From: Polytrichum commune
Lineage: Eukaryota > Streptophyta > Polytrichopsida > Polytrichales > Polytrichaceae
Reading direction: 5' to 3'
Assembly: GCA_950295325.1 (NCBI GenBank)
Contig: OX485808.1
Span: forward strand, 27,610,527 to 27,674,526
Length of the DNA: 64,000 nt
Part shown: piece after piece, positions 15,168-49,066 of the stretch
How the letters are laid out: every line of letters starts with the position of its first letter
How positions within the stretch are numbered: the first letter of the stretch is position 1
Program-made: the position numbers and the translations under genes
Notes under the pieces: generated by a model
What the model was told of the DNA's origin: nothing
The model's input: only the letters and a program-made list of their open reading frames with translations
The model's database searches: none

Positions 15168-17139
15168 TAATGTCTCAGGAATTTATGGATTGGATTCATG
15201 ACCTTTTGCTGATCATAATGCTATCTACTGCAAATTTAAATCATTAGTGTTAAACAAATTACTGCATCCACAAGTTCATGTTTGAAGGTACAAAAGGGTT
15301 TTTCATGTCCGCTACAGGAGATAGCTTTGGGGATCATCTGCAATTCAGAATAGTTTGATAGACAATCAAAATCAATCGAATACTTCTCATGAATTCATAA
15401 ACCGTTCTTTGAACACAAAGAGGAGCAACATTGATAGGAACCCACTGATATGATTATGTTTAATTTAGAAAAGGTTTGCACTTGCAAGTGTCATTTTCGG
15501 AACAATTCAGGTGCAGTTTTTCTAACAGCAGGGGTGTTTCATTTCACTTCTAAGAAGTTTACTAAAAACAATTATAATTTTCACTCTTGATTTCATGCTT
15601 ATAATGTGAAAAAGCTAGCAGCTCCAAATTGAGGCTTCTTAAATCTGATTTAGCAGCTCCAAGCCAAGTTCTTAAAACGGTACCCCCTGCGAGTGCTACA
15701 GACAGTGGCTATCCAGGGTATAAAATTGTAAGCAAACATTGCGAACATAACTTTAGCTGAAACTAAAATCACCTAAAGAAAGTGTCTTGATTCATGTGAA
15801 ACTCATGTGGGTTTTCAGATCAGTTCAAGAAGTAATTCCCTAGTTTTTCTGCATTAGGCCAGACGACATGCCCCTTGGCCACCTCTTTGGCCATTCTCCC
15901 AATCTCCCAATTTTAGTCACCGTTTCCTATCTGGTCCTTCCAAATCTCAATTACAATCACAACCCTGCACTCTGGGCGAAGAGACTTTGAAGTTTGGAGA
16001 GAATCAGAGTAGGTCACCTTGATCTCTATTTCTCTGTCTTATTAAATTCATGCGGGGTTTGGTGGTATTACATTTGTTTTTGAATTTCTGTGTGACTTCA
16101 GAGGGTTGGTCACACATCTAGGTTTAAGTACTTCGAAGTTGGTAATATTAATTGTATGCTTAAGATGAGATGAAACAATTCAATATTACCAACTTCGATC
16201 CCCCTGTGGGGTGCCAGGGGGTGTTTGAGTGAGTCCCATTTATGGATTTTTTTCCCCATGTTGCATTGCAGTCACTCGTTCTTGACATTTTGAAGTGTGA
16301 CTGCATCATAGAATCATAGCATAGACAAGTCCAGGAGCCATAAATTTTTGAGATGGTTTTAGAATGAAGGTCATGTTTGACACATTTTATAGGACATCCA
16401 TCATCAACAACATTAAGAAGTCTAGCTTAATATAAGAAAATGTTGGATCATGAAGATTGTGTAGAGATAGGGCTCGTCATGCGGCCACTATTGATCATCA
16501 CCACTTGACCAGGTTGAAGGTTGCTCTTCGGCTCCTTTGCCAATTTTGTAAGAATTTTCACTGGTTTAATTTCAAGCCTTGTGAAATGGGAGGATTAAGG
16601 CTAACCTGGTACTGCTACTTCTACTACTACCTCAATGGTATGAATCCTTGCCTGAATCTGATGTTGCTTTCAAATTCTCACCCTTACACTAACTCAATAT
16701 ATGCAACTTTTCTTTCTCCAAGGCCAGATGATGGCAGGATCACCTATCCTTGTTTCAGTTGCCACTAACCTCCTTTTTGTGAAGAAAGCCGATTTCAATT
16801 CGAAGTTCTTGAGTGTGGTGTATCACATTCATCCTACTTTGCATTACCATCAGTACCCTTTAAATTTCACTCACTAACCTAATTGCCCCCTGAGTGCCTA
16901 AAATTGATCACTCATATCCCCTGCTCATGCTTATGTCTAAGAAGCGGTGGTGATGATCCATTGAGACAGACAGCTCCCAACAGGTGCAATCGTGGTCCTC
17001 CTAGTACCCAAAAAAAAAAAAAAAAAAAATGCTTTCCCATCAATCCTAAAAAAAGACTCCTCTTAATCGTTACGGTGCTGGAAAAATTCAGAGTGAGTGA
17101 GTAGCTGCTGCTGCTGCAAGCAGAAAAAAATTCGCAGGC
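15168..17139. other. Intergenic upstream of the STPG gene
   Basis: This stretch holds the presumed promoter and 5' untranslated region of the STPG gene. About 15400-15720 is similar to 22740-23010 on the far side of that gene. A perfect 17-bp inverted repeat sits at 16133-16149 / 16182-16198. A run of about 20 A lies just upstream of the gene (17010-17028). An open frame at 16457-16768 shows no motif and is not called. Confidence 0.45.
16133..16198. other. Perfect 17-bp hairpin
   Basis: TCGAAGTTGGTAATATT at 16133-16149 is exactly mirrored at 16182-16198, separated by 32 bases. A further AATTG/CAATT pair can extend the stem inward. It could be a hairpin RNA or a remnant of a small TIR element. 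Confidence 0.6.
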
Positions 17140-20100
17140 ATGGATGACTGGAACGACAACCCCGGGCCGGGGGCGTACACGATCAAAGACAGATTTGTGA
17201 AAGACCAAGCACCCGTGTACTCCATCGGCGCCCGGCTGAAATCGTTCAACAAGGCGGACCAACCCGGCCCCGGGACGTACAACCCGAAACCAGACAGCAA
17301 GGGCCCCGCGTACTCGATCCCGGGGCGCGGGGGCCGCCTCCGTGGCGACGAGAATCCTGGCCCGGGGACATACACCTCGGACGTGAAATCCACGAAGGTG
17401 CAGGCCCCCTGCTACACTATCGCCGGCCGGCTGAGCAGCTACGATGGCAACAAGAATCCCGGCCCGGGGACTTACGACGTCAAAAGGAACATCGACGGGC
17501 CGGCGTACAGCTTGGCAGGCAGGATCCGTGACGCGACGTCGAGCAAAACGCCCGGGCCGGGGACGTACAACAACACGGCGCCATCCGGGGCGCCGGCTTA
17601 TAGCATTGCATTGAGAGCCAACGAATCGAAAAGCCAGGATTCCCCCGGCCCCGGAGCGTATGATCCGAATGTTCATTCCTGTCAGCCCGCTTACAGCTTG
17701 GCCAAGCGGCTTGACAACAGCTACAACCAAGACAATCCCGGCCCGGGGACTTACAACACAGGTATATAACATGTTCAATTACACATTATATGTTGGGTCT
17801 TCGATAAGTTCTCTAAGAAAACATGAGGTTTTCTGGCGTTTGCTCTCAAGTTGCAGTGCACAAGGAAGGAGAGAGGGGAGGGGAATTGTTACCGCATTGA
17901 GCGTACCTCTCAATGAAGAGAAGGGAATTATCGTATACGAATGTTCCTCTAATTCATTCAACATGAAAGCCCTGAAATAGTATGTAGCCGGAGGTCATCT
18001 CTTTTGTTGGTTGATTTGACACCAAAATTAGTTTAGAGACGTTGAATTAGTCCAACTCGAGGTCATGTGAGATGATACGGCAACAAACCAATGGGGGACC
18101 TAAAGTTATTATCTTGGGTGGATGAGAGGTACGCTTGTATATGATAACTCCCTCTGTCTACTCTCAATATCCAACATAAAAACCCTAGAATAGTTTACAA
18201 TTCGGAAGTTAATTGTTTTAGGTTATAGGGACACCAAATTTTAGCTTTAAAGGCCTCGATTTAGCTTAGGTCAAGTCATTTGAGATGAATCGGCCACAAA
18301 CCTATAGGGTCAAGATTTTATGTTGGATGGATGAGAGGTACGATCGTATGCGATAATTTCCTCTCTCCTACAAGAAACTACACCGATTTGTCTTATTAGT
18401 GTAGGTTCCCACTTGGAATTACATGTTGCTATAGCTTTTTAATCAAAAATATCAGAGTGACTCTTGAAAATTAGCTAGTTCGACACCATCCTGATGTACT
18501 TTTAATCCCATGAGCCTTTCAGCTTCCCAGACTCCAAAATCAATTTCATTGCAATTCAATCCAACAAAAGGAGGGACCATTGACCTTAAAACCAAGGTCC
18601 AACCATTGTAATAGGAACATGACCTATTAGGCAACCAAATGTCTTCACCTTGGGTCTGAGCTCATGTCGTGTGAGGCAACGCCACGAAGTACAAAACCAG
18701 GTCGCAAAATCTAGCAGCTTGGTGCATTCACCACCAATTATAATACAGTTTATGAGTGCATCTACGGCAGTCTCAGAAAAGCGTGACCTTAGATGGATAC
18801 GTTTCTCTCTCTCTGCACCCACTTCCTGTATTATGATATGAAACACGCAATTACGGTGCAAAATGGCAAATCCAAATCGCACCATGGCCATTTTGCCTCA
18901 TAATTACAGGAGCTCATATGAATATCTTATTCACTGTCAAAGCAAAGATTCCCATGCTCATTAAGTGCTCATATACATCCCCATGTAATCATGTCATCTA
19001 CTGAGCCTAGAATGGTTATCATATTTTGAGCATATCATCCACATCCTCCAATCCTTGAGTTAATCAACACATGTCTTTTTGGTGCCAGTTCTTAGACCAC
19101 ACGTAACCACATACCGCTCAGACATAGGTACAGTCCAGATTACTCTTGTGTTCGATTTCGACTTAGTTATGAGTTTGAAACTCCATGTGTTCGTGTTGAG
19201 ACAGAGGGAATTGTCTTCTTACTTCAAAATTCAGCACAAGTGCTAATTAGGGCACCGAAGTCTTTCGTTGAACTTGAGATCTCATCATGCGGGTTATATC
19301 AGTCAAGGAAGCTAAAAAATTGCAAGGTGTTACGACAAAATAGCACCGAACATGGATGAGGTGTTAGTCCCATGAAGTTAGTCTTTTGGGATACTTGGAC
19401 TCTAAAACAGTGTCCCGGAAGGTTTCTGGGCATAATCGGTTGAGATCTTAGTGTTTCCAAAGTGCAACCGGCTTCATGTTGACATCCTTCCGTTTTTCAT
19501 TATTAATGTGGGGAATATTCTATAGATTGCTCTTAAATGATTGGTAATTTTCCTGAAGTCTTGAACCTCAACCGGTTATTTCTCAAACTCAACCGGTTCG
19601 GCTGTTACTAGCGGTCTGTTCTCCCCGTCCATTCCTCTGAAATCAGTGTTGGTCATTTCGAACACAGACAAGGCGGACCGAGGGCCGGCGTACAGCTTGG
19701 CGAAGCGGTACCGAGACGGCAACCGGGATGTTGGGCCAGGACCAGGTGAGTATGAGCCCAACTGTAAATCTGGCGCACCTGCATATAGCATTGCTGGTAG
19801 GACTCCTGGGTTGCCGGGTTCTGACAATCCGGGGCCGGGGGCATACAACCCAAGTGAGCGTCCGGGGAGTCCATGTTACAGCATCGCAGGCCGGTTCAAG
19901 TTCAGGCCGGGCGACAAGAACCCGGGGCCAGGGGCGTACGATCCGAAAGTGAAGTCCGGGGCACCGTGCTACAGCTTGACGGGACGGCCAACCGGGATCG
20001 GGGGTGACAAGAATCCGGGGCCGGGGACGTACGATCCGAATGTGCACTCGTGTGTGCCGGCATACAGTATCGCGCACAGGTTTGACGCGGCGAAGTCGCA

Positions 20101-21346
20101 AGATAGCCCCGGGCCGGGAGCGTATGAGCTCAACCGGAAGATTCCTGGGCCGGCGTACACGATCGCGGGGCAATTGCCTTCGCACAAAGGGGAGCAAGGG
20201 CCCGGTCCGGGAGCGTATGATCCCGATGTGCACTCGTGCGTGCCGGCGTATTCATTGGCGAAGCGGTTTGCGGATCGGGTGAGTGACGACCAACCCGGTC
20301 CGGGCACGTATAGCTTAAAATCCACGTTTAGTGGACCAGCGTACTCGATTCCCGGACGAGGGAAAGGCTTGCCGGATCAGGAGTTACCCGGGCCCGGGAC
20401 ATACAATCCGAAAGATCCTTCAGGCATGCCCGCGTACTCGATCGCCGGGAGGTTGGAGAGTCAGAAAGGCGACAAGACCCCCGGCCCCGGTTCGTATCAA
20501 CCTAATGTAAAATCCGGCGCGCCGTGCTATAGTATCGCGATGCGCGCGAACGACCATAAAGGCGACAACAATCCGGGACCCGGAACTTACAACCCCGACG
20601 TCCACAACTGCATTCCGGCTTACTCGATCGCCCACCGTTTGGAGGGCCCCGCTTACGACTCCGGCCCTGGCCCCGGGGCGTACCAGCTGAAAGCCTCCAC
20701 GGGGGAGGGTCCGGCGTACACGCTAGCCAAACGGCTGCAACATAACCACAACGAAGGGCAGCCGGGTCCGGGGGCTTATTCTCCAAATGTTGGCTCCGGA
20801 GCTCCATGTTACAGCATCGCGGGCCACCTTAAGCCCTCACAATCTTTTGTTGGGCCTGGTCCAGGTGAGTACCAGCCGAATGTGAAATCCGGTGCGCCCG
20901 CTTACAGCATGGGCGACCGCGCCCACGGCGTCCTTCCGCCGGACAACCCCGGCCCCGGCGCGTACAGTCCCAACACGGCCGGCGGCGCGCCCGCCTACAG
21001 CATCGCAATAAGGACGGAAACTAAGAACCGCAACAAAAACCCCGGACCCGGAGCCTACGATCCGAAGGTCAGGTCCGGCGCCCCCGCCTACAGTTTGACG
21101 GGGCGGGGGCAAGGGATTAGTGGCGACAAGAATCCCGGCCCCGGGACGTATGATCCCAACGTCCACAACTGTATCCCAGCTTACAGCATCGCTCACCGGT
21201 TCGCGGACTCCAAGTCGGCCGACAGCCCGGGCCCCGGCGCTTACAATGTGAGCCGCAAGATCCCCGGACCTGCGTTCACCATTCTCGGCAGACATCCCCG
21301 CAAACACATGAAACAGAAATTGCGACCGGGAGACGATTACAGCTGA
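17140..21346 (+). CDS. STPG/SHIPPO-repeat (ODF3-like) sperm-tail protein, two exons
   Basis: Model: join(17140..17761, 19668..21346), 2,301 nt, 766 aa. The donor is G|GTATAT and the acceptor CACAG|AC; the split GAC codon rejoins the reading frame as YNTDKADRGPAYS. The protein is almost wholly built of sperm-tail PG-rich units: I count 24 PGPG-x-Y motifs (7 in exon 1, 17 in exon 2), alternating with PAYS/PCYS-I-x-x-R segments. In animals and protists this family (ODF3/SHIPPO1, STPG) is tied to axonemal microtubules of cilia and flagella; here it probably serves the locomotory apparatus of motile sperm. The exons are much richer in G and C than the flanking DNA. The first ATG lies directly before the first unit. 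The 1.9-kb intron is filled with repeats. Long open frames on the opposite strand are shadows of the repeat composition. The number of exons upstream of the ATG is unknown. Confidence 0.93.
17762..19667 (+). other. Repeat-filled intron of the STPG gene
   Basis: The intron is GT...AG. It holds two tandem units of about 210 bp carrying the (T)GGATGAGAGGTACG motif (near 18125 and 18335, with a related GCGTACCTCTCA near 17900). An R1 copy on the minus strand follows at about 18815-19145, and a minus-strand copy of the AACCGGTT family at about 19380-19630. That last repeat ends only about 40 bases before the acceptor, so the branch point and part of the 3' splice region probably lie in or beside repeat DNA. 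Confidence 0.75.
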
Positions 21347-25262: not shown

Positions 25263-26739
25263 ACAAGGATTACATACATGTGACTTTTCAACTTGGACAT
25301 GCAGACCAGTGCTCCACCTACTCTACATTTGAGGTTCAAATGTTAGCTTTCCCAACAGTGCAAGCGTGTGAGAGATATGAATAGGAAATGGCGATTATCA
25401 ATTGGAAGAATGGGGAATTAATGGCCAAAGTGGTGGCCAAAGGGCAGATTTTCTGGCCTAATGGAGCGAAAAACATGAGAAATGTCATGAGTTATTTCAT
25501 CACATACGTTTCACAAGTGTTATACTAGGAGGCTCCATCATCCACTTCCTGCAATGTAATGATCCACCAAGCATATCTCACTACGAGAATACATAGGTCT
25601 CGATGACACGGTCCAAAATGACCATAATAACTTCGTTTCAATTAGCCATGCTTGGAAGGGGGAAACAAAACAAAACAAAAAAAACAAAAAAAACAAAAAC
25701 AAAACAAAATTGATACAAACATGTTTCTTCCAAGCCAATCTAAATTCATACACAATGTCATTTTGATCATTCTCAGGATGTGTCATCTAGACCCATGTTT
25801 TCTTACAAGGTGACTCAATAGTGCATCATCATGAGGCAAGAAGAATCGAATGTTTCACGAAACGAAATTTGGGTAAGCCACAGTTGAAATTCAATCAATC
25901 TTGGTGTTTTTGTCGTGGATGTTCACATGATGTGTGCATTGCTATAAATCACTAAAAGAAATCTTATAATTCATGTGTACACACAAACTTTCAAGACACA
26001 AGACACACTTGCCCTCAAAACGGAGCAGCATTTGCAATGGAAAGGGCGCCCATGTCGGTCAACATTAAACATTGGTTAAGAAGCATAAGTATTGTGTTTT
26101 TGAGCACTTTTGGTACTATAAACATCTTGAAAACTGTAGATTTTATTTTAATATATTTTTTTCCTTCAAAGTGAAATCGAATACCTAGGGTTTATGGATG
26201 TTGACCCATGCTGTAGAAAATTTACTTCCACTTAGTTCAAAAATGATCAACATTTGAATTCAAACTGTAGTGGTTTAATCCAGAGCGCTGGTGGAGAAGT
26301 TCGATGATGTGTTGAAAGGACCTCGAAACCGGAGAATTGGGTGCTCAAATTCTGATATGACCAAGGTGAGAATTACCGTGCAACCAGCGCACAATGTGTT
26401 AACTTCATGTTTTTCAATTGCATGGTGAATGTGGAAGATGTTGTGGCTGGATTTGAGTTCAATGATTTGTGGCTGCCTTCAGCCATATCTTTGATCAATT
26501 TTAGGTTTGTAGGTGGCATGGAAATTAAAAACTTCGTCGTAGCAAAGTGGTCATTGAACTTGGCTGCATTGATTGATTGCACGAGTGGTCAACCTGGATC
26601 AGGAATCTCATTACTCTGATTTTGAGACAGTCACATAAATTGTTTAGAAAGCTTCAACCAAAATTTAAGAGAATCTCATAAGCGGGAAGATCTGTATTTC
26701 AACAATCTCCACCATGAAATCTTGTGTGCCGGAATGTAG

Positions 26740-26752
26740 TTTTTGTGTGTGG
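26740..26752. repeat. Left target-site duplication of the LINE
   Basis: TTTTTGTGTGTGG, identical to 34377-34389. It fixes the left border of the retrotransposon. Confidence 0.85.
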
Positions 26753-26816
26753 AATCAAACAAACAGGAATCACCATACCCGCTATACCTAACCTTTTTAC
26801 CACAACCAAATTTACA

Positions 26817-29800
26817 ATGATAATATATCTAAAAATACATATGAAAAATCCCAGAACACTTCATTCCTATGGTTACTACTTCATTGACAAACTTGAATTG
26901 CTAAAAGGCGGAGACATCAAGCCCAACCCAGGACCAATGCCTAACATCCTCCACACACATCCTACAACACACAAAAGAAGAGCAAACACTTACTTCATTC
27001 CAAACACCATAAAACTACAACCTGAATACCAACACATCGCAAATACATTTGCCCCCATTCTACAAAACACACACCCACTACACCCCCAAGCAATAACAAC
27101 TTACCCGCATTTACACCAATATACACAAACACAAAGCCAATCACCACCCACACATATGCTCTATGCTCTCATCATCACCATCCACCCCTCAATAGACACA
27201 TGCAATAACATACTAGCCCAACCTCAACATTACCATTTTAACAACATTTGGACTAACACTTTGATTATCAGACTAGCTAACCTCAACAATCCACCTGAAA
27301 GGCACATATTGACACCTCACCCCTACACCACATTCGTGGAAAATAATCAAGATATAATACACCCAAAAAATTCAATAAACACAGAATTATATGAATTCAT
27401 ACATAACCGAGATGTTACACCTACATTAGCCACCCTTCAAAATAAATTTCCCTTCCTCCCAAGTCAATTGCTCAAGGAAGCACTCCGATGCCTAGAAAAC
27501 ATCAATGAATACTCACACCCACCACCACCATTAGATATTCCCGCACCAATTCCAAGAACCAACACCGACATCGAACACGAAACCAACATCATCACATGGA
27601 ATGCGTCGTCACTCAACACATCATTGCCAAACCTACAAAATCTAATCAACAATTCACTAAATAACACAGCAATCATACATATTCAAGAAACCAAACTAAC
27701 TGCAAACAAATCCACAAAATACATACAAAACTTATTTCCAGAATTTAAACTCACTTTTAACAACACACATGCTCTTACAAGATGCATACAACAAAGAATG
27801 CCTTCTACCCCCGGTAGAGGAGGCTTACTTACACTCATCCACAATAAATATGCATTCCCTGGAAATATCACCAAAATTCCCACGCCAGCAAATATCTCTC
27901 CATATCTACAAATAATCAAAATAAATAACCACCCACTAACACCCTGGATAATCATACACATGTATATGCCTACACACTTAGAAGACACGTGTCTTATCCC
28001 ACACCTTAAGAACGAAATCACTAACGAAATCACTATCCATCCCAATCACATATATACATTATGTGGTGACTTTAACCGAGACATCGCACTTACGGGCAGA
28101 CAAAATAACAACATTAACACCCTTCCACAAGAAGAAGACTATCAATGGAAAAATTTCACCGCATCACTCAACCTGGAATATATCCCAACTAACACTACTT
28201 TCTCTAGACAAGGAGGCTATAATTATACATCAACAAGTCTAATAGATGGATTCTACATCCACTCGCCAGACAACAGCAAATTCATCTCTACTACTAACAC
28301 CAACATGAATCTAAACTCAGACCACTACCCAATTGTCCTACATATCCCCCATAACACCCTTATAGCCAGACCCCCGCCTCCCACAAACACGCCACCTACT
28401 AGAATCCTAAATCCAATCCCACCAGAAAACATCGAAAAATTCAACATAATATTCTTCGAAGAAAATTTCACACAAATCAAGACACTTACCACATTACTAG
28501 AATCCCACCAACACTTAAGTCCAGATCTATGGGCGGAAGCTTGCACAATATTTGACCACATTGTACATAAAATCTCAGAAACAATTGAAAAAACTTGTAA
28601 AGCAGACCCACTACCCAATCTTACGAATAGAACAACCCAACAAGGTGGATTTTTGCCACGAAAACTAGCCAGAAAATGGAAACAACACCTAAACACATAT
28701 CACCTCATCCGGAAAACCATATACATTGCACAACACGACCCACTTTGGCAAGCGCACCCCATCCTCAACGACATACGTAACCACCAAAATACAAACATCC
28801 CACTTCCACCCGTTACAATGATACCTCCTACCGAATGGATTGAAACCATTGCAACCATCGCCAAAAATGCAAATAAAGCAGCCAGAAAAATTACCACAAA
28901 ATATACCAAAAATTGTATTCTAAAAGCCGTATCAAAATATCGTCAAATGTATGAAAAAACCCCCAAAAAGATAAATCGTAAAATCTTCAAGAATACTGAA
29001 ACCTCACCACTTGACTTCATCATGGATAGGCAAAATAACATCCTAACTAACCCAGAAAATATCGCATCAGAAATTTACACGCAACAATCCATTAGTAACC
29101 GCCCTACAGTCCCCACATGTCACTATAACAATAACCACCCACTACACTGCACATGTGGAGTCCGGCAATACCCATGGCACGATTTAGACGGATACACAAT
29201 CGACAGACGAGGCGAACCCCAAACCCCCTTACACACGTACTTTGACCAACAAACATACGACCTCTACCTTAAAAATCTAAGTAATAACAAAGCCCCCGGC
29301 CCAAACAAAATACCCAATTCCATTCTAAAAAACATGCCGCCACGCTTTCACAAATTACTCTTTCTATTCTTTAAACAATGTTATAAACAAAAACAAATCC
29401 CCGCATCGTGGAAAACTAGTCTCACAGTTTTACTATACAAAAAAGGTGACCCGTCACAACTAACAAATCACAGGCCTATTGCACTAGCTAACACCATATA
29501 TAAATTCTACACGAGTACACTAACATCTATCCTATCAGCATATGGAGAAAAACATCAAATCCTACACGATAGTCAAGAAGGGTTTAGAGCTGAGAGAAGC
29601 ACTTCTAGACAAATTCAATTATTAATCGCAGCGCTTGAAGACGCACGATTCACGAACCAAGATATATACATTCTCTATATTGACTTCAAAAATGCCTTTG
29701 GCTCTATTGATCACGCCAGACTCTTAGCAATCATGAAGGATCTAGGCTATCCTACTGACTCCATAAACCTCATAGGAAACATATATTCACAATCATCAAC

Positions 29801-32800
29801 CATATTCATTGGAGAACACTTCGGCAAAACCCTACCAATCCCCATACAAAGAGGCACAATACAGGGCGACACACTAAGCCCGTACCTCTTTATCATATTC
29901 CTTGAACCCCTCCTTCGATGGCTCCAACAAGGAAACAATGGATATACTTTTGGTACATCTAAAGTTAAAATCTCATCAGCAGCCTATGCCGATGATCTAG
30001 CAGCAATCGCCAATAAATTAGAGTCACTACAAACACAACTCACCAAACTAGACAAATTCTGTACCTGGGCTGGAATGGACCTTGGAATACCCAAATGTGC
30101 CGTGACTGGGTGCCCAAATAAATCCAAACTCCACCCCATAACTTTCAAAGCCCTAATCCAAGCCTCCAACATCAACTACAGAAACCAACCCCTACCAGTC
30201 TTAAACCAACATGAACCATACACATATTTAGGAATCAATCTTGCACCGTCACTCAAATGGAAAACACAAATAAATACCACTACAGCTAAAGTAACTAAAC
30301 AATGTCAAGCCCTCATAACATGCCCAGCTACTATGAAACAAAAAATAAATATGGCAGATACAGTCATCCGGGCGGGAATAGCATATAGCTTCTATGCAGT
30401 GCCATACTCCATACCATCCATCAAAAAACTTGATAACAAAATAATCGCACTTCATAAAATAATTTGTGGAATACCCAAATGTACATCTAACATCACTACA
30501 CAACTCCCACACAACCTATTCGGAATTGAAGCATTCTCACTACAAAATGCCTATTTAAGATGCATTGGCGAACAACTACAAAATGCCCTCAATGATAAAG
30601 GTCGACTTGGGAAAATCTATGTTGGCCTACTTCAATTCATACTCGCCAAATATGGTGGATCTAAAGAAATCACCTGCATCAGATACCATCATTGTGTCAG
30701 ATCACCCATCACTAGAACATTGTTCCTACTCAAGCACAAAGCCGGAGTCCACCTAAAAAGTACAATAAATAACTTCCTCTTAAACCCCTCCCCACTAGAA
30801 ACCGCATGGATGCAAGAAACACAAATACTTCACGAACTAAGCCCCCACCTCTCACTTAAATTACTAAATAAACTACTAGTGCATAATATAACCACACTCG
30901 ACCAAATTACAATGCCTAATGGTACCACCCTCATGAACCCAGACGAATTCAAAATTTACCACTCCACCCCTTCTAAACTCCTCCAAAGCGCACTCCACAT
31001 CGCTAACCAATTATTTTGCCACCCCCCTTGTAATCACTGCCCCATGCCATGTCAACAACATCATCCGCCAAGATCTCTAAAAAACAAGTACATTATTCGA
31101 CACCATAACATCCTACCTCAACCACCGAGCAACCCCGTACACCACACCCACCGCCCCATCCCCCACCTACCCCCTCCCCCCAGCAACATGCTTAAAGACC
31201 CCCGACAATTCCCCATACAAAAAATCCTCGATCACAAACAAAAACAATCCAACGACCATAATGGAATAAAACGGACAGTTACGTCATATTTGTGCCAATG
31301 GACCACAACAAATAATTACACATATAACAAATGGCGAACACAACGAGACCTTTATCCTTACTGCGAAACCAACATATGTAACCACAACACCGATTTACTT
31401 ATCCAGTATTACAAAGAAAGGCAACACCAACAATTCTCAAACATCATCAATGCCTACTTCTCCACAGAACAACATAGGGACACAAGGTTTGTCACACCAA
31501 CCACAACAATCCCACTAGCTCAAATCTCTATTAATGAATGTAACCCAGAAAACGACATCGAAACAAACTCGGATACCATACAAATACAATTCGATGTTGC
31601 CCACATATACGAGGACAACGGCCGGCATCTCATTACCATCCCGAAAACCCGGCTATTGTGGCTATGGAAACAATACCAACTGGCCAAAAATACCACACAC
31701 GGTCTAGAACCCTCTACTCAGGCATTCGAAACTGAAATTGTTTGGTTATACCAAAGGTATAAATACCGTATCCCAAAAAATGACACGCTCAAACGAGCCC
31801 AGTACACAATACCAACCCCAATACTAGACCTCCTAATTACAACATTCAATATTAATCATTCATATTTCTCGTCCCCAGTTACATGTCCCATACAATTCAG
31901 CCAATTCTATTCACCATTCTCGCGAGACGTAATATTTGGATCCCTAGGTAAAGCGTTTGACCACAAATGGCAAGGACTCGGATACGCACACCCCCATAAC
32001 ACAACAGACTTACAACAAGCTATTCATTGGGCCCGAATGGCGGCCCAAAACGATCCACATACAATCACTATACTTATTTCCCCCGACACTGATTGGTACC
32101 AAAACTCCAACCCGCACATAGGCCCATTTCCAGACACACATGTCATTGCCCATTTTGCCGCTGATACGCTCACCTATGAGGAACCCACAATACCCCCCGA
32201 GCTCAATATCCCCAGGAAAGAGCCATCTACCATACAAATATTCTGCATCCATCACCAAAGCAATACCATTGGCACCCTTGAACAAATGAAACTAATACAA
32301 GAAATATCAAACAACCTCCACATACCTCAGAGCCACACACAAATTGCACCACCCACCCCCCCAAACACCACCGTTAACCCTAGTAAAAAATGGGCTAAAT
32401 CAAACTACCCAAATCCATACATACACAATAATATCCCTATCCCACAACTTCCAGACTACCAAACAAATTTACCCCTAAAATTCCACCCACAATTTAGTTA
32501 TTACACGGATGGTTCATTCATAAAACCCTTAGAAATTGCCCCTGGGGTATGGAGAAGAGAAAGAGCTGGTTACGGCATCTACAGCCCCAAAGGCCTAAAC
32601 ATTGCCAAAAGACTCCACGGGCATCAAAATATACTACGTGCTGAAATGATGGCCATACACAAAACATTAAGAATCGTCAACACACAATTCCCTAATGAAC
32701 CCGCCTTTATATTCACAGATAGTCTAAATGTCTTATACTTACTCAACACACAAATTAAACACCCCACTCTCCATAATAGCCACCCAGACCAAACCACACT

Positions 32801-33041
32801 TAACTCCATGGTAAAAATCCTTCAAAACCGCACACAACCAATCACACTATACAAAGTTAGAGCACACGTCAACATTGACGGTAATGAAAAAGCCGATAAA
32901 CTAGCAAAAATGGGATTAGAATTAGAACACAGAAACGCCCGTCACCCATACGAACATGCCCACGCAACCCCGTATTACTACCAAAAGATATCTGGGCCTC
33001 GATGGATGAAGTCCCAGACAAAGGCCCAGTCAGATTCTTAG
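26817..33041 (+). CDS. LINE polyprotein: 2A-like, APE, RT, PCIF1-like domain, RNase H
   Basis: 2,074 aa from the first ATG inside the target duplications; the open frame extends upstream to a GTG at 26724, but that lies in host DNA. A 2A-like GDIKPNPGP is at residues 32-40. The APE endonuclease spans about 255-510: Asn262, Glu291 in QETK, GDFN at 417-420, SDH at 501-503. The reverse transcriptase spans about 820-1095: Asp956, GTIQGDTLSP and YADD at 1057-1060. A Cys/His cluster lies near 1400. A domain like PCIF1 methyltransferase lies at about 1630-1860: an SSP..C..QFSQFYSPF stretch from 1685, FGS.G..FD, and AHPHN at 1724 where PCIF1 has NPPF. RNase H spans about 1893-2045 with Asp1898, Glu1943, Asp1968 and Asp2027. 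The frame ends 16 codons after a point where the -1 frame takes over plausible coding. Confidence 0.88.
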   Translation: MIIYLKIHMKNPRTLHSYGYYFIDKLELLKGGDIKPNPGPMPNILHTHPTTHKRRANTYFIPNTIKLQPEYQHIANTFAPILQNTHPLHPQAITTYPHLHQYTQTQSQSPPTHMLYALIITIHPSIDTCNNILAQPQHYHFNNIWTNTLIIRLANLNNPPERHILTPHPYTTFVENNQDIIHPKNSINTELYEFIHNRDVTPTLATLQNKFPFLPSQLLKEALRCLENINEYSHPPPPLDIPAPIPRTNTDIEHETNIITWNASSLNTSLPNLQNLINNSLNNTAIIHIQETKLTANKSTKYIQNLFPEFKLTFNNTHALTRCIQQRMPSTPGRGGLLTLIHNKYAFPGNITKIPTPANISPYLQIIKINNHPLTPWIIIHMYMPTHLEDTCLIPHLKNEITNEITIHPNHIYTLCGDFNRDIALTGRQNNNINTLPQEEDYQWKNFTASLNLEYIPTNTTFSRQGGYNYTSTSLIDGFYIHSPDNSKFISTTNTNMNLNSDHYPIVLHIPHNTLIARPPPPTNTPPTRILNPIPPENIEKFNIIFFEENFTQIKTLTTLLESHQHLSPDLWAEACTIFDHIVHKISETIEKTCKADPLPNLTNRTTQQGGFLPRKLARKWKQHLNTYHLIRKTIYIAQHDPLWQAHPILNDIRNHQNTNIPLPPVTMIPPTEWIETIATIAKNANKAARKITTKYTKNCILKAVSKYRQMYEKTPKKINRKIFKNTETSPLDFIMDRQNNILTNPENIASEIYTQQSISNRPTVPTCHYNNNHPLHCTCGVRQYPWHDLDGYTIDRRGEPQTPLHTYFDQQTYDLYLKNLSNNKAPGPNKIPNSILKNMPPRFHKLLFLFFKQCYKQKQIPASWKTSLTVLLYKKGDPSQLTNHRPIALANTIYKFYTSTLTSILSAYGEKHQILHDSQEGFRAERSTSRQIQLLIAALEDARFTNQDIYILYIDFKNAFGSIDHARLLAIMKDLGYPTDSINLIGNIYSQSSTIFIGEHFGKTLPIPIQRGTIQGDTLSPYLFIIFLEPLLRWLQQGNNGYTFGTSKVKISSAAYADDLAAIANKLESLQTQLTKLDKFCTWAGMDLGIPKCAVTGCPNKSKLHPITFKALIQASNINYRNQPLPVLNQHEPYTYLGINLAPSLKWKTQINTTTAKVTKQCQALITCPATMKQKINMADTVIRAGIAYSFYAVPYSIPSIKKLDNKIIALHKIICGIPKCTSNITTQLPHNLFGIEAFSLQNAYLRCIGEQLQNALNDKGRLGKIYVGLLQFILAKYGGSKEITCIRYHHCVRSPITRTLFLLKHKAGVHLKSTINNFLLNPSPLETAWMQETQILHELSPHLSLKLLNKLLVHNITTLDQITMPNGTTLMNPDEFKIYHSTPSKLLQSALHIANQLFCHPPCNHCPMPCQQHHPPRSLKNKYIIRHHNILPQPPSNPVHHTHRPIPHLPPPPSNMLKDPRQFPIQKILDHKQKQSNDHNGIKRTVTSYLCQWTTTNNYTYNKWRTQRDLYPYCETNICNHNTDLLIQYYKERQHQQFSNIINAYFSTEQHRDTRFVTPTTTIPLAQISINECNPENDIETNSDTIQIQFDVAHIYEDNGRHLITIPKTRLLWLWKQYQLAKNTTHGLEPSTQAFETEIVWLYQRYKYRIPKNDTLKRAQYTIPTPILDLLITTFNINHSYFSSPVTCPIQFSQFYSPFSRDVIFGSLGKAFDHKWQGLGYAHPHNTTDLQQAIHWARMAAQNDPHTITILISPDTDWYQNSNPHIGPFPDTHVIAHFAADTLTYEEPTIPPELNIPRKEPSTIQIFCIHHQSNTIGTLEQMKLIQEISNNLHIPQSHTQIAPPTPPNTTVNPSKKWAKSNYPNPYIHNNIPIPQLPDYQTNLPLKFHPQFSYYTDGSFIKPLEIAPGVWRRERAGYGIYSPKGLNIAKRLHGHQNILRAEMMAIHKTLRIVNTQFPNEPAFIFTDSLNVLYLLNTQIKHPTLHNSHPDQTTLNSMVKILQNRTQPITLYKVRAHVNIDGNEKADKLAKMGLELEHRNARHPYEHAHATPYYYQKISGPRWMKSQTKAQSDS
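26910..26936 (+). other. 2A-like ribosome-skipping motif
   Basis: Codes for GDIKPNPGP, matching the D-x-E-x-NPGP consensus except Lys in place of Glu. Similar motifs occur at the N-termini of some animal and trypanosome non-LTR elements. If it works, it would release a short N-terminal peptide from the polyprotein. The Lys change may weaken it. Confidence 0.6.
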
Positions 33042-33958
33042 AAAAACAAATTAAAAAATACGATCGGGAGACCAATATCGCAATCATGGCCACACAAACC
33101 CCCAACACGTGCAAATGGACAGAAAATGTAGACATAAACAAAGAAATGTCAAACGACTTCTGGACAAATCCCTTAATCGCAGACAAACAAAAATCATGCC
33201 TTATCAAATTCCGCACAGGCACCTACATGGGTAATGCAAGGAAGCAAATGTTCTTCGGCAATCAAAGATACCCCTCTATTACATGTCCCATATGCAACTC
33301 AAACGACCCAGACACGTGGCTACATGTACTACTTAAATGTAAGCAACAACATATACATGCACTCAGAGTTAGAAGACATAATAAAGCAGTAGCAGAAATT
33401 CGTAAACTTCTAATTTCGTCCGAAAAATCTAGATGTTTTATTCTCATGAATGCCGGTACCTTCAATAATAATCCCCAAGAAAATACTGTCCCTAATTGGC
33501 TCCTCCCATGCACATGTAACACACAAAGATGCCACTGCAACGCAAGATTTCGACCTGATATACTCTGCGTTAAAGGTCTACCATATCAAAATGTCCCACC
33601 CACTGATACCGACCCTAACCTCACTATACAATTTATTGAATTCACATATTGCAACGATAGATTCTCCCGAGAGGCAATAGAGGCAAAAACTAACAAATAC
33701 AAACCGCTACTTGATAGTCTTGTTTCTAGAGGTTGGAAAACTGAACCACTTATTGTCATTACCGCTGGGGCCAGAGCTACCACCCACACCCCCTCTATGA
33801 AAATACTCGAAGACAAACTCAAAATACCCACGAATCTCATTAAAAATACGTTTAAAGATATCAACTCCATTGCAATACACTATGCCATGTCTATCCTCCT
33901 ACATAAAAGGAGAATAGAAAATCACCAACCGCTTCCCCAAAATCTAGACCCTCCATAA
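33002..33958 (+). CDS. LINE C-terminal part: CCHC knuckle and restriction-like endonuclease, -1 frame
   Basis: 318 aa counted from the first ATG, overlapping the upstream frame by 40 bases in the -1 frame. The frame is also open upstream of that ATG, and its reading (PKDIWASMDEVPDKG) looks coding, so it is probably the severed C-terminus of the polyprotein rather than a separate ORF. A zinc knuckle C-x2-C-x9-H-x4-C is formed by C95, C98, H108 and C113. A second Cys-rich patch lies near 170-180. It is followed by RPD (P185-D186), then Glu213 in FIEFTY, then K229-x2-K232-Y233. This CCHC, PD, E/D, K-x-x-K-Y order is that of the restriction-like endonuclease of R2/CRE-type LINEs. It would be the second DNA-cutting activity of the element. 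Confidence 0.75.
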   Translation: MDEVPDKGPVRFLEKQIKKYDRETNIAIMATQTPNTCKWTENVDINKEMSNDFWTNPLIADKQKSCLIKFRTGTYMGNARKQMFFGNQRYPSITCPICNSNDPDTWLHVLLKCKQQHIHALRVRRHNKAVAEIRKLLISSEKSRCFILMNAGTFNNNPQENTVPNWLLPCTCNTQRCHCNARFRPDILCVKGLPYQNVPPTDTDPNLTIQFIEFTYCNDRFSREAIEAKTNKYKPLLDSLVSRGWKTEPLIVITAGARATTHTPSMKILEDKLKIPTNLIKNTFKDINSIAIHYAMSILLHKRRIENHQPLPQNLDPP

Positions 33959-34376
33959 CTCAAACTACCAAAACATTTAATCTCTACCTAGCAGCTCAAG
34001 ATAAGGGATTGGTGTCGGTTGGCTGGTACTAATTTCCTGCCTTTTTATCACTTGCAACATCAAATCATGATCTACATATATGACAGTCAAACGGGGATCG
34101 AACGGGGGCCGTCTTATCTCAACATCCTCCCACAACCAACCGAGGACTCATGACTTGATGAACACCCGTGCAACTAATTCCCTAATTATACAAACCCCGT
34201 GGGCCAAAATGGACACGGTTATTATTTACTGGCTACTATAGTGTCCATCCTCGAAAGGGGAGAGTAGTTTTGTCCCAGCTTCCCCATGTCCTGTGGGCAT
34301 CGGATTGTTGGCATTACGAACGGACACTCTATTCACGCCGGTCCCTAAACGGGACCGGAGTTACTATCTATCTATC
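33959..34376 (+). other. LINE 3' untranslated region
   Basis: 418 bases from the stop codon to the right target duplication. Unlike the coding part, it has a normal share of G. On the minus strand, 34090-34150 contains GTTCGATCC, a tRNA B-box match, with an A-box-like TTGGTTGTGGGAG about 30 bases before it. The end carries the hairpin and tail listed separately. Confidence 0.6.
34338..34376 (+). promoter_or_regulatory. 3'-terminal hairpin and ATCT tail of the LINE
   Basis: CCGGTCCC (34338-34345) and GGGACCGG (34351-34358) form a perfect 8-bp stem with the loop TAAAC. It is followed by a short ATCT-type tail ending exactly at the target duplication. A 3' stem-loop before a short tandem tail is the recognition signal for the reverse transcriptase in several stringent LINE types; the same role is inferred here. 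Confidence 0.6.
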
Positions 34377-34389
34377 TTTTTGTGTGTGG
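34377..34389. repeat. Right target-site duplication of the LINE
   Basis: TTTTTGTGTGTGG, identical to 26740-26752. It fixes the right border of the retrotransposon. Confidence 0.85.
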
Positions 34390-38542: not shown

Positions 38543-38614
38543 GGGGTATTGGGAGAATTGAACTCCCGACCTCTTGCACCCTAAGCAAGAATCATACCAC
38601 TAGACCAAATACCC
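38543..38614 (-). tRNA. tRNA-Pro(AGG), copy 1
   Basis: 72 nt including the discriminator C. The 7-bp acceptor stem GGGTATT/AATACCC is perfect, the A box is TGGTCTAGTGG, the anticodon stem CTTGC/GCAAG carries loop TTAGGGT (anticodon AGG), and the B box is GTTCAATTC. A TTTTT Pol III terminator lies about 24 bases downstream. No intron. It decodes CCU, and CCC or others through wobble. Confidence 0.93.
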
Positions 38615-38774
38615 ATTTATTCCGAATACATGCTTCATGTACATGTTCTCATGCGTTATAAACTGTCCATGTTTAGATTTTCTTTTTCTTGCTTTTGCAA
38701 AAGGGATTTATGAAGTGTTCTATTAAAGTTCCCTTTTTCTTTGGAAAAAAAGGACTCTTTTATACTCCATGGTT

Positions 38775-38846
38775 GGGGTATTGGGAGAATTGAACTCCCG
38801 ACCTCTTGCACCCTAAGCAAGAATCATACCACTAGACCAAATACCC
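38775..38846 (-). tRNA. tRNA-Pro(AGG), copy 2
   Basis: 72 nt, identical in sequence to copy 1 (38543-38614). A run of seven or more T on the minus strand lies within 30 bases downstream. The flanks repeat those of copy 1, so the two genes arose by tandem duplication of a unit of about 232 bp. Confidence 0.93.
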
Positions 38847-38959
38847 ATTTACTTCGAATATATGCGTCATACCCATATTCTCATGGTTTATAAAGTGTCC
38901 ATGTTTAGATTTTCTTTTTCTTGCTTTTGTAAAAGAGAGGCTCCTCCAATCACAACTTC

Positions 38960-39031
38960 GGGGTATTGGGAGAATTGAACTCCCGACCTCTTGCACCCTA
39001 AGCAAGAATCATACCACTAGACCAAATACCC
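38960..39031 (-). tRNA. tRNA-Pro(AGG), copy 3
   Basis: 72 nt, identical to the other two copies. The downstream T run is shorter (CTCTTTTAC), so termination may be less efficient. It is the first of the three in the direction of transcription. Confidence 0.92.
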
Positions 39032-40003: not shown

Positions 40004-43000
40004 TTATAATGAAAGAAGACAGGATGAGCTGACCACAATTGCAAGTGCAGCAGTAAAGAAAACTGCATATAATCTCAAAGTGCTAAAAGATGACGTGGAC
40101 CCACTAGTGCCAGGCGTACTAGAAGAGGGCGGCGAGGTTGAGTTGGAGGGGGAAGAGGAGTTGGTGGAGGACGAGGAGGAATTACTTGCCTTTATCCCTA
40201 TGATAAATTTGCAAGTTCCTACCGAAGGATCTGTGGTGGTAATCTGTGCCACCCCTTGAAAATTGCAGGCTAGAGGGTTTTGGTCGTTGAACTGGTAGTA
40301 ATTGTTGAAGGCATATGAAGCGTTCTGCGCCGAGGTTAACCCCGAACAACTGCCTCCATTTTGTAATGGTGTACAATCTCCACGGGAACATGCATAGTCT
40401 ACATTTGTTGCCAATAGTGATTGGTCTGCGGAAGGGTTTAAGACACACCATTGACTTGGATAGTAAACAACATTTTGAGCCGCCACGAGCTTCGTTTGTG
40501 CAGAAACACCACCTGCAAAGAACCCCAACACATAGAAATAAATTAGGGTTGAAGGGTTGAGGTGTGCAAGAAAATGACTGCAGAACACATAGAGAGCCAC
40601 AAATTCAAGATTTAGCGTTTAGAGACTTTGTTCATTGAACAACATTAATGGAGTTAGAATCACTAGGTGGCAAGTAAAGCAGGTGTCAAACACTTGTTGC
40701 TACATACCAAGTCATGAAGACAACTCTAATTAACATGACACCAATTAGGGTTCACGGGATTAAGGTTTGCAAGGCGATGACTGCAGAGCACATACAGACA
40801 CAAAATCATAAACAGATACATTGGTATTTCATGCTAGACATTACCATAGTTCATTGAATTGTTATCTAGGGCTTCAGGGTTTAAGGATTGCAAGAAAATG
40901 ACTGCAGAACACATTCACAAACACAAACAGATATTTTGGTATATAACAGGCTAAACATGTCCATATTTCATTGGGATGTTGTTTAGGGTTGAAGGGTTTA
41001 AGGTTTGCAAGAAAAAGAACAAAGACAGGGTTTAGGGTTCAGATTTTGTTCATTGACCCACATTAAATGTGTCATGATTAATTGTTCATTTACCATTAGG
41101 TGGCAATTAGAGAGGGTGTCGCAACAGTTGTTGGTACATAACAAGTCATGAAGACCACTGTTGTTAACATGACATACCAATTTTGATGCCACTACATCAG
41201 ATGTGCAGAATAGAAAACAAATATCAGGGTAGGATATAATAAAATCACATGTACACATCAAACAGTGATGATGCTGTGTTGAAATACCAACTCACTGAAA
41301 TTGGATGAGTTGTTACAAAGTAGAAAATGAACCCAAAATTTGAATTGAATCACAAACTTCCGTTGCGGTAGAAATTTCACTCATAACCGACTATCACGGA
41401 CACCTGAATCGGTGATTTAATGACAGTGCACTCAAAGACATCAAAATTCCTAGAAACATGCTGAAAGAATTTGAATTTAACCCACCCGTAAGTAAGATCC
41501 AAGAGATATTTAATGCTCTATTTTTGCATCAACTCACCGAATTTGATGAATATGTCCAAAATTGACCATGAACTCTTTAATTTCAAATTGAATTAACAGC
41601 TAACCCAATCAATCACCATGCTAGCCCATGAAATTGGATGATTCTTGATGTCACACTGCCCAACTCATTAACACGTGCACATTCAAGTCGAATGACCACA
41701 TGTTGAATGTCAAGTTGGAGGTCTAAACGATTGTTGGAATATGCACATGTTAAAATCTAAACTCAAAGATATCGTCATGAAAAACACATGCTACTGAAGC
41801 GAATTTGGAAGTTGATTTGTAAGTGACACACCTGTAAGATCCAAGGGATACTTCAAGGAGCCATCGTAGTTGAAAACACCCCAATGTCGTTCAAATGGCC
41901 CGGGCAAGGTACTTTTGGCATCCTCGTCCAACAAACTGAACAGATATCCCTCGATCTGAGTATTGGGACGCAGCGGAGTTCCACCACCACCCAACATATG
42001 ATTCACAAGCTGCTGATTAAACCTTTGGGCTAAGGTGACATTTGCATAAACAGTTCCATCCGTAGGCCATCCAATTTCCCCAACAATAATCGACATGTTA
42101 GGGTAACCCCCAGCGGTCAAAGCCGTCACCAAACCATCGTAACTTGCATCAAAAACATTGGTGTAAGTAAGGGTCCCATCGTGTACAGGGTTCGCTGTGC
42201 CCGCAAAAAAGGCATAGTCAATTGGGAAGTTGGCGTTCTGGTATAAACTAAGGAAGGGGTAGAAGTTGATGACGAATGGGGAGCTTGTTGTGGCCAGTGC
42301 TGCAACAATCTGCATCATTAGGGTTGCCAGGTCTGATCGAAATGTCACTTGGGATGGATATGTTGCGAGGGATAGTACGTCTGCGTTGCAAGGGACCACT
42401 GCTTTCACTGTTGTTGACAGTCCTGCTGCTGCTAGGGCGGATTGAATGTTCTGGAGTGCAGGTAGTACGAGGTTTTGATAGCGGCCTGCGTAGCCGTCCA
42501 AAAATGGCTCGTTTCCAACGGCTGCGTACCTGGTAGAGTCAGCAATCTCAGTTACTTAGTACAGGAGGAAGTTGGTGGGAAACCCTAATTGATCATTTAT
42601 GCGCTTGGTTGATCAAGCCAGTCTCCAATTTCGGAGAAGAGAATTCCGTTGAGGACTGACATCAATCTCACATTCCTTACCCCATCGCTCTTAGGTTAAG
42701 AATTCAGAATTCCCACAAGCATTCACACTCATCTCCCACATCAACCTTCCTTATTTCCTTTCTCCCATAAAACTGGGAGTAAATCCAGATGATGACTGAG
42801 AATCATCGGTAGTAGTAATTCTACAGACAACCCACATCAACCATAATATCTAGGCCCACCACTATTGGGTTGACACTCACCTCCCACGTCAACCTCTCTC
42901 TCTTTCCCATGTATAACCTTTAAAACAAAGAATTCTACAAGCAACCCACATCCACCTAAATCCAGAGTTACACAAACCCCCAAACTCAACTGCCACATGA

Positions 43001-48615: not shown

Positions 48616-49066
48616 GTACCTCTCATTCATCCAACATAAAGTCCTGAAATAGTGTGAAACCCCGAGGTTGTGTTTCCTTAGTTGATTTGACGTCGAAATT
48701 AGCTTCATAGACCCTGAATTAGTATGTCGGAGGTCATTTGACGGGAACCAACAACATATGTATAAAGGGATTCAGTTTTTTTTATGTTGGATGGATTAGA
48801 TGTACCTTTCATTCATCCAACATAAAGTCCCGAAATAGTGTGAAACCCTGAGGTTGCATTCCTTTAGTTGATTTGACGTCGGAATTAGTTTTATAGATCC
48901 CGGATTAGTACGTCGGAGGTCATTTGACGGGAACCAACAACAAATGTATAGGGGGTCGGTTTTTTATGTTGGATGGATCGGACGTACCTCTCATTTATCC
49001 AACATAAAGTCATATAATAGTGTGAAACCTTGAGGTTGCATTTCCTTAGTTGATTTGACGTTGACG
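48616..49066. repeat. Tandem array of a 182-186-bp unit
   Basis: Units start (GTACC) at 48616, 48802 and 48984; the third is cut off at 49066 by a (TC)n run and a SINE. Each has ATCCAACATAAAGTC, ATAGTGTGAAACC, TTAGTTGATTTGACGT and, in complete units, TCGGAGGTCATTTGACGGG and TATGTTGGATGGAT. Related diverged units sit in the STPG intron (17900-18360). Confidence 0.88.

Follow-up and report, generated by a model that had tools for sequence, protein, structure and literature searches.

How the restriction-like nuclease of R2-type retrotransposons was replaced by an apurinic/apyrimidinic endonuclease (APE) in other long interspersed nuclear elements (LINEs), including human L1, is an open evolutionary question, and the replacement has been argued from the position of a single group, Dualen (PMC4640811; this and the other cited sources were available in part). 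Dualen elements are defined by the combination of an APE and a restriction-like nuclease (PMC3636483, PMC4640811), and an RNase H has also been reported for them (PMC4640811). Dualen/RandI is listed for green algae only in Table 3 of one survey (PMC4438587) and is described from relatives of Chlamydomonas in another report (PMC8226300); the clade name is listed in a further source (PMC5753468), and Dualen/RandI occurs as a repeat-annotation label in cryptophytes and an apicomplexan (PMC12747079, PMC9714946). A literature search that covered few subscription journals and no Repbase returned no Dualen/RandI element from a land plant, and most records of the two nucleases together have come from green algae. 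The LINE described here, which appears to carry both nucleases, lies in a 64,000-nucleotide stretch of Polytrichum commune DNA (hereafter the window) on contig OX485808.1, contig C6 of a 408-Mb assembly of 64 contigs.

It is highly probable that this element belongs to a large, diverse and recently active land-plant family, of which the window holds one truncated, frame-broken copy, and, jointly with this, that the family is of Dualen type by domain definition, not by sequence kinship to Chlamydomonas Dualen. The proposal of the initial annotation, that a streptophyte carries a LINE with both an APE and a restriction-like endonuclease, is supported by Pfam matches, invariant motifs and profile alignment (hhalign) against R2 nucleases. 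The longest copy has a first open reading frame (ORF1) followed by a second (ORF2), and intact ORF2 products of 2,372–2,924 aa are arranged as a leader of low complexity that ends with a 2A motif (in some copies with several), APE, reverse transcriptase (RT), PCIF1-like domain, RNase H, CCHC knuckle and restriction-like endonuclease (REL). The features of Dualen/RandI are therefore found together, namely an APE upstream of the RT, a restriction-like nuclease in one frame, as recognized by sequence homology, and an RNase H, which occurs also in copies L021, L044 and L053. R2 elements have a restriction-like nuclease without an APE, and elements of L1 and the APE clades have an APE as their sole nuclease; the APE present here argues against the first assignment and the R2-type nuclease against the second. 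Chlamydomonas Dualen is also said to contain a cysteine protease; Pfam (E up to 1) found no peptidase family in L021 or L044, nor in the part of ORF1 that was scanned, where a distant one may escape it.

A multicopy family in one plant genome

Homology of the window copy to other copies spans positions 26756–34377 (+ strand), a length of 7.6 kb. It is bracketed by a perfect 12-bp direct repeat, TTTTGTGTGTGG, at 26741–26752 and 34378–34389, forming the 5′ and 3′ target-site duplications, and three bases (AAT) separate the 5′ repeat from the start of homology; the element edges first proposed, 26753–34376, were right within a few bases, with the duplications outside. Frame 1 of the copy (26718–33041, + strand) comprises 2,107 aa from stop to stop and 2,074 aa from its first Met, counted from which the Asn of ITWN is residue 262 and the Glu of QETK residue 291. 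The second frame (32900–33958) is −1 relative to frame 1 and overlaps it at 32900–33041. All motifs that the initial annotation had named (ITWN with N262, QETK with E291, GDFN, SDH, CCHC, RPD, E and K-x-x-KY) were found in the sequence. Both of its frames likewise lie where it had placed them, but the −1 step between RNase H and nuclease is a lesion specific to the window copy, since intact copies lack it. The 2A motif, the PCIF1-like domain and the 5′ truncation had no place in the initial annotation. A single continuous frame with all domains occurs in L021 (2,924 aa), L022 (2,663 aa), L023 (2,625 aa), L044 (2,372 aa) and L059 (2,612 aa), which are distributed over three contigs, three on C1, one on C4 and one on C5. 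A programmed −1 frameshift was also considered, and is ruled out by these intact copies.

Over 7,623 bp the window copy shares 99.7% identity with both L021 (on C4) and L022 (on C1), the alignment having one gap opening with L021 and two with L022; L023 shows 87% DNA identity. The L021 copy measures 14,586 bp between 11-bp repeats (AGTAACTTAAA), and the window copy is therefore short of some 7.0 kb at its 5′ end. The L022 copy is shorter, at about 13.3 kb, and its flanks, read by eye, show GACTCCCACT on both sides. Target-site duplications were thus 10–12 bp in the three copies examined, and the flanks vary between copies. Together with the 99.7% identity between copies, these duplications point to recent activity. 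The upstream frame of L021 (ORF1) has about 1,820 aa within the limits of the element, or 1,833 from stop to stop, and its end resembles, by eye, upstream frames in L023 and L051.

A genome search with the C-terminal frame gave at least 115 matches at 80–100% identity. Twenty RT matches were fetched from at least 150 listed, and 13 of these are 63–67% identical to the window RT and make up a second subfamily, B, the other seven being distant (25–29%). Subfamily B, in its long members L044–L048, keeps the domain order as far as it was read; L044 is intact, and L045–L048 are broken by stops or frameshifts. Subfamily C, which was assigned by eye and met via 2A and PCIF1 searches, comprises L051–L053 and the intact L059, and the C-terminal domains of L059 and L051 are 65–66% identical to that of the window. 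Pattern searches of viral contigs and of other genome contigs found no relatives by those patterns. For the alignments used below, A1 contains 13 of the 28 sequences that carry the C-terminal domain, and A2 and A3 contain seven of nine long copies, leaving out the near-copy L022 as well as L047, which has no APE match and a split PCIF1-like region.

The RT domain of the window copy (29442–30242, + strand; YADD) matches Pfam RVT_1 at 4.1e-29 in the whole frame, and its best solved match is an R2 element (9nl2, 2.9e-30). In phmmer comparisons the family RT scored 2.9e-30 to 6.3e-28 against three R2 sequences, 2e-18 against R2Bm and 3.4e-17 against human L1. Because R2Bm and human L1 score about alike, the lead of R2 depends on the R2 chosen. 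In an RT tree of 25 rows the family forms one clade (100/99), and the R2 rows and the L1-type rows form the other two; three clades without an outgroup constitute a star, and the tree therefore gives neither a root nor a ranking of R2 against L1. A Dualen/RandI RT would be expected between the R2-type and APE-type clades, a position on which such a star is silent. Among the rows available, the RT thus stands in a clade of its own and not in one ending in an unrelated Cys/His domain, the placement that, according to the initial annotation, would have refuted its proposal. On the human L1 side of the same tree lies a second, distant LINE-like RT family of this genome (L037–L042), with about 27–29% RT identity.

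The 3′ end of the window copy consists of a hairpin, CCGGTCCC-TAAAC-GGGACCGG (34338–34358, + strand), and a tail ending in (ATCT)n (34359–34377, + strand). A GC-rich hairpin followed by an (ATCT)n tail is found at all 23 subfamily-A loci examined, with a few base differences in the hairpin. These loci represent 19 distinct sites, three having been read twice and two having a common flank, and the 3′ flanks vary with no shared target discernible by eye.

Since Dualen/RandI is listed for green algae only (PMC4438587, in the part available), the gap between the algae and this plant needs an explanation, and one that we regard as possible, if on the unlikely side, is that the family came from an alga by horizontal transfer and not by descent. 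That published list is what speaks for transfer. However, two RT groups that are mutually 59–67% identical occur in this one genome together with a third, nearer one, which argues for long residence, with which an old transfer would still be compatible.

The two nuclease domains

The APE domain of the window copy (27585–28331, + strand) was not detected when the whole frame was compared with Pfam, and the domain alone matched Exo_endo_phos at 0.0019, under the curated cut-off. At E up to 1, Exo_endo_phos was found in 7/7 of the APE members given (best 4.6e-9) and Exo_endo_phos_2 in six of the seven (best 4e-9), the latter lying above its cut-off in the whole L044 frame. In the PDB, exonuclease III structures are matched by the APE profile (best 0.00086). 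The fetched piece of L047 shows no match to the APE. The Asn of TWN, the Glu of QET, GDFN, ID (IDG in the window copy) and SDH are invariant in all nine rows of an APE alignment drawn from three subfamilies, from which L051 and L053 were excluded because their APE frames are broken. The corresponding alignment positions, N25, E54, D181, N183, D240, S264, D265 and H266, are those that we take to be catalytic.

Both nucleases are under purifying selection, with dN/dS (the ratio of nonsynonymous to synonymous substitution rates) between 0.08 and 0.21. Between L021 and L023, both intact, the values are 0.092 for the APE, 0.051 for the RT, 0.089 for the PCIF1-like domain, 0.072 for RNase H and 0.082 for the REL. 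In four chosen subfamily-B pairs, whose synonymous sites are near saturation, the APE gave 0.106–0.210, and the REL gave 0.095–0.129 in the three pairs with finite dS, the fourth pair having infinite dS. Because both nucleases are kept by selection, a division of labour between them would be the most likely arrangement, in which the APE would cut the first strand with little regard to sequence and the CCHC knuckle would hold the R2-type nuclease for the nick in the second strand.

It may instead be that just one nuclease is active while the other has been retained to bind DNA, the C-terminal domain, for example, serving only to grip the target. This we consider improbable. Conservation is no proof of cleavage, and binding-only relatives of nucleases exist in other families. 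However, it is the catalytic-type positions themselves that do not vary, D165, E192, K208, K211 and Y212 being invariant in 10/10 REL rows and the APE set in 9/9; this is more readily reconciled with two working nucleases.

The C-terminal domain (33341–33955, + strand) follows a CCHC knuckle, C-x2-C-x9-H-x4-C (33284–33340, + strand), that is invariant in 13/13 rows of A1 and 10/10 rows of alignment A7, and on profile evidence it is homologous to the R2 restriction-like endonuclease. The comparison profile was made from the R2Bm C-terminus (identical to 8gh6_A) and two further R2 rows, and hhalign aligned the REL profile to it with a P value of 4.3e-5 (probability 69%), unchanged when subfamily C was added. 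The alignment covers 126–136 columns and includes RHNK, PDI, K-x-x-KY and the C-terminal R...S-x-K-x-L stretch. Control alignments to the same profile gave P values of 0.63 for the APE, 0.28 for the PCIF1-like domain and 0.29 for the RT, reversed columns gave 0.27, and two runs of 200 column shuffles each produced no score as high as the real one of 38 (maxima 28.5 and 18.5). The motif residues lie at 33551–33559 (RPD), 33638–33640 (E), 33686–33688 (K) and 33695–33700 (KY) on the + strand, and the Asp of RPD pairs with the Asp of R2Bm for which 8ibw has Ala.

The homology is also supported by comparison of the REL profile with the whole PDB at E up to 10, which found only the R2Bm sequences 8gh6 and 8ibw, though with weak scores (0.57, or 0.2 with a shorter alignment) and at the CCHC-RHN stretch ahead of the R2 nuclease.

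Several observations weigh against this homology. The P value is 0.033 for the REL core without the CCHC-RHN part and 0.02 for subfamily-A rows alone, the signal thus depending on subfamily B. The second acid is left unpaired by hhalign, E192 having been set against an R2 Asp by eye, and the D-to-E spacing is 26 residues here versus 12 between the two Asp of R2Bm; in L047, Q replaces the P of RPD. As to the PD-(D/E)XK fold expected in the initial annotation, sequence homology to the R2 nuclease is in keeping with it; AlphaFold on the single window sequence of the domain returned a meaningless model with a pLDDT (predicted local distance difference test) of 34.8. Pfam showed no credible family for the domain, the best being DUF2043 at 0.0065 in 2/13 sequences.

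The weak PDB scores, the P value of the core and the failed fold model, together with a further Cys-rich insert, C-x-C-x4-C-x-C, in the C-terminal domain, speak for an unrelated Cys/His zinc-binding domain with only its motif order resembling R2. Given how far the P value against R2 lies from those of the controls and that no shuffle scored as high, this is very unlikely, and homology to the R2 nuclease remains preferred. Finally, a false dual element, produced by the nesting of two LINEs or by their misassembly next to each other, could be suspected from the split of the window copy over two frames, but is refuted by the continuous frames of five copies on three contigs and a domain order common to the subfamilies.

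2A motifs, the PCIF1-like domain and a possible mechanism

The genome encodes 420 occurrences of the pattern GDIxxNPGP, versus 0 of the reversed pattern, and the 2A motifs examined in context all belong to the dual-endonuclease element. Within the genome stretch listed, 25 of 31 family copies have a 2A motif on their own strand 3.0–9.5 kb upstream, most often at 6–7 kb. The motif stands upstream of the APE in 12 of the 13 long copies read, the exception being L047, whose fetched piece contains no motif; the frames of L051 and L053 break off within or ahead of the APE. Among the motifs listed there are 12 clusters, each of two or three motifs, and 13 of 14 spacings are a multiple of three. L051 (C1:66445600-66455400) has as many as four motifs, one with RDI for GDI, in one 841-aa frame (nt 366–2888), and its first three NPGP motifs resemble subfamily B and its last A/C by eye, a mosaic-like arrangement.

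The published core of 2A/StopGo sequences is (D/G/C/N)(V/I)ExNPGP (PMC12846837), and it is satisfied, by sequence, by 60 of 100 listed motifs. At the E position these have 60 E, 19 Q, 14 H, 5 K, 1 R and 1 Y. The motif of the window copy, GDIKPNPGP (26910–26936, + strand), does not satisfy it. The abundance of the motif in this plant genome contrasts with a survey published in 2026 that covered close to 10,000 viral 2A sequences, the available part of which reports no evidence of natural use by plant viruses (PMC12846837).

Downstream of the RT, a Cys/His-rich stretch, CHPPCNHCPMPC (31017–31073, + strand), precedes the PCIF1-like domain (31689–31976, + strand), which lies between RT and RNase H (32496–32918, + strand; Pfam RNase_H 2.3e-12 in the whole window frame). 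The Pfam family PF12237 was matched at 1e-10 in the whole window frame, above its curated cut-off, at 7.9e-12 by the domain alone, and in 7/7 members given at E up to 1. In the PDB the PCIF1-like profile matches PCIF1 alone (E 0.2), and at least 150 matches were scored genome-wide of 697 candidates, the window copy included. NPPF, the catalytic motif of active PCIF1, occurs in 0/7 rows of A3, where AHPHN, AFPTD, AHPKD or AYPTD stands instead; L056–L059 have AHPPN or AHPHN at this site, AHPPN being found in subfamily C. The replacement of NPPF suggests a disarmed methyltransferase, and the domain, with its catalytic motif lost, more likely binds RNA or serves as a scaffold. Among the papers listed by a literature search linking PCIF1 to retroelements, none was relevant.

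These features can be combined into a mechanism in which ribosome skipping at the 2A motif would free the leader from the enzyme polyprotein, which would bind the 3′ hairpin and tail of the element RNA, nick one strand and prime reverse transcription there, that is, target-primed reverse transcription. RNase H would then remove the RNA, and the other strand would be nicked. We tentatively propose, as a possibility short of an even chance, that the family is an extant intermediate stage linking restriction-type to APE-type LINEs, in which each of two unrelated nucleases cuts one target strand, expression is from a very large polyprotein through tandem 2A motifs, and a captured, disarmed cap-methyltransferase domain binds the element RNA. 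Several points count against the main reading of the family as one of Dualen type. The division of labour between the nucleases is something that we purely infer, and 40 of the 100 listed 2A motifs have no E. The window copy itself has K at the E position of the core, so that ribosome skipping by its motif is doubtful. The PF12237 score of L044 is 27.4 bits, below the cut-off of 31.1, and nothing in the 1,674 aa scanned of ORF1 matched a Pfam family at E up to 1. A land-plant family with two nucleases, many copies and recent activity would make both active sites separately testable.

Host, neighbouring features and known systems

LFY is a gene of streptophytes and Ovate one of land plants, and because both are present the host is very probably a land plant. 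The LFY SAM domain gave four matches in the genome, one of them weak (C1:40569930, C7:8639033, C1:62297762 and C7:14030880), and Ovate gave six, one of them marginal; neither had a match in 14 control genomes. Four LEAFY matches exceed the expectation for one plant genome. In a GC-rich block of the window, a gene with sperm-tail PG-rich (SHIPPO) repeats lies at 17101–17769 and 19565–21346 (+ strand; PF07004, 5.5e-32 and 1.3e-68), which suggests motile sperm and therefore a seed-free plant. X8 and glycosyl hydrolase 17 domains, about 1.2 kb apart on the same strand (40004–42555, − strand), are probably exons of one cell-wall glucanase gene. In addition, there are three tandem tRNA-Pro(AGG) genes at 38543–39031 (− strand), with starts 232 and 185 bp apart and the first two within a 232-bp tandem repeat, and a tandem repeat of 186 bp (2.4 copies, 87% matches) at 48616–49061.

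Among known systems, R2-type LINEs (R2Bm, R2Tg) provide the best solved RT matches and apparently a homologous C-terminal CCHC knuckle and restriction-like nuclease. They are specific for ribosomal DNA and are not known to have an APE, RNase H or 2A, whereas the 3′ flanks of the family described here vary, by eye, among its 19 distinct sites. The cap m6Am methyltransferase PCIF1/CAPAM shares the PF12237 homology but has the NPPF motif that the family lacks. The non-LTR retrotransposons of trypanosomes and sea urchin resemble the family in their NPGP ribosome-skipping motif (PMC4981915); these elements are of APE type (PMC12846837), to which the present family adds a second nuclease and, unlike them, up to four 2A motifs in one frame. 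Overall, the family is most like Dualen/RandI of Chlamydomonas and its relatives, with which it would share an APE, a PD-(D/E)XK-type nuclease, one RT and an RNase H. The family differs from Dualen/RandI in its land-plant host and its 14.6-kb copy, and may differ from it further in its ORF1, its 2A motifs (tandem in some copies) and its PCIF1-like domain.

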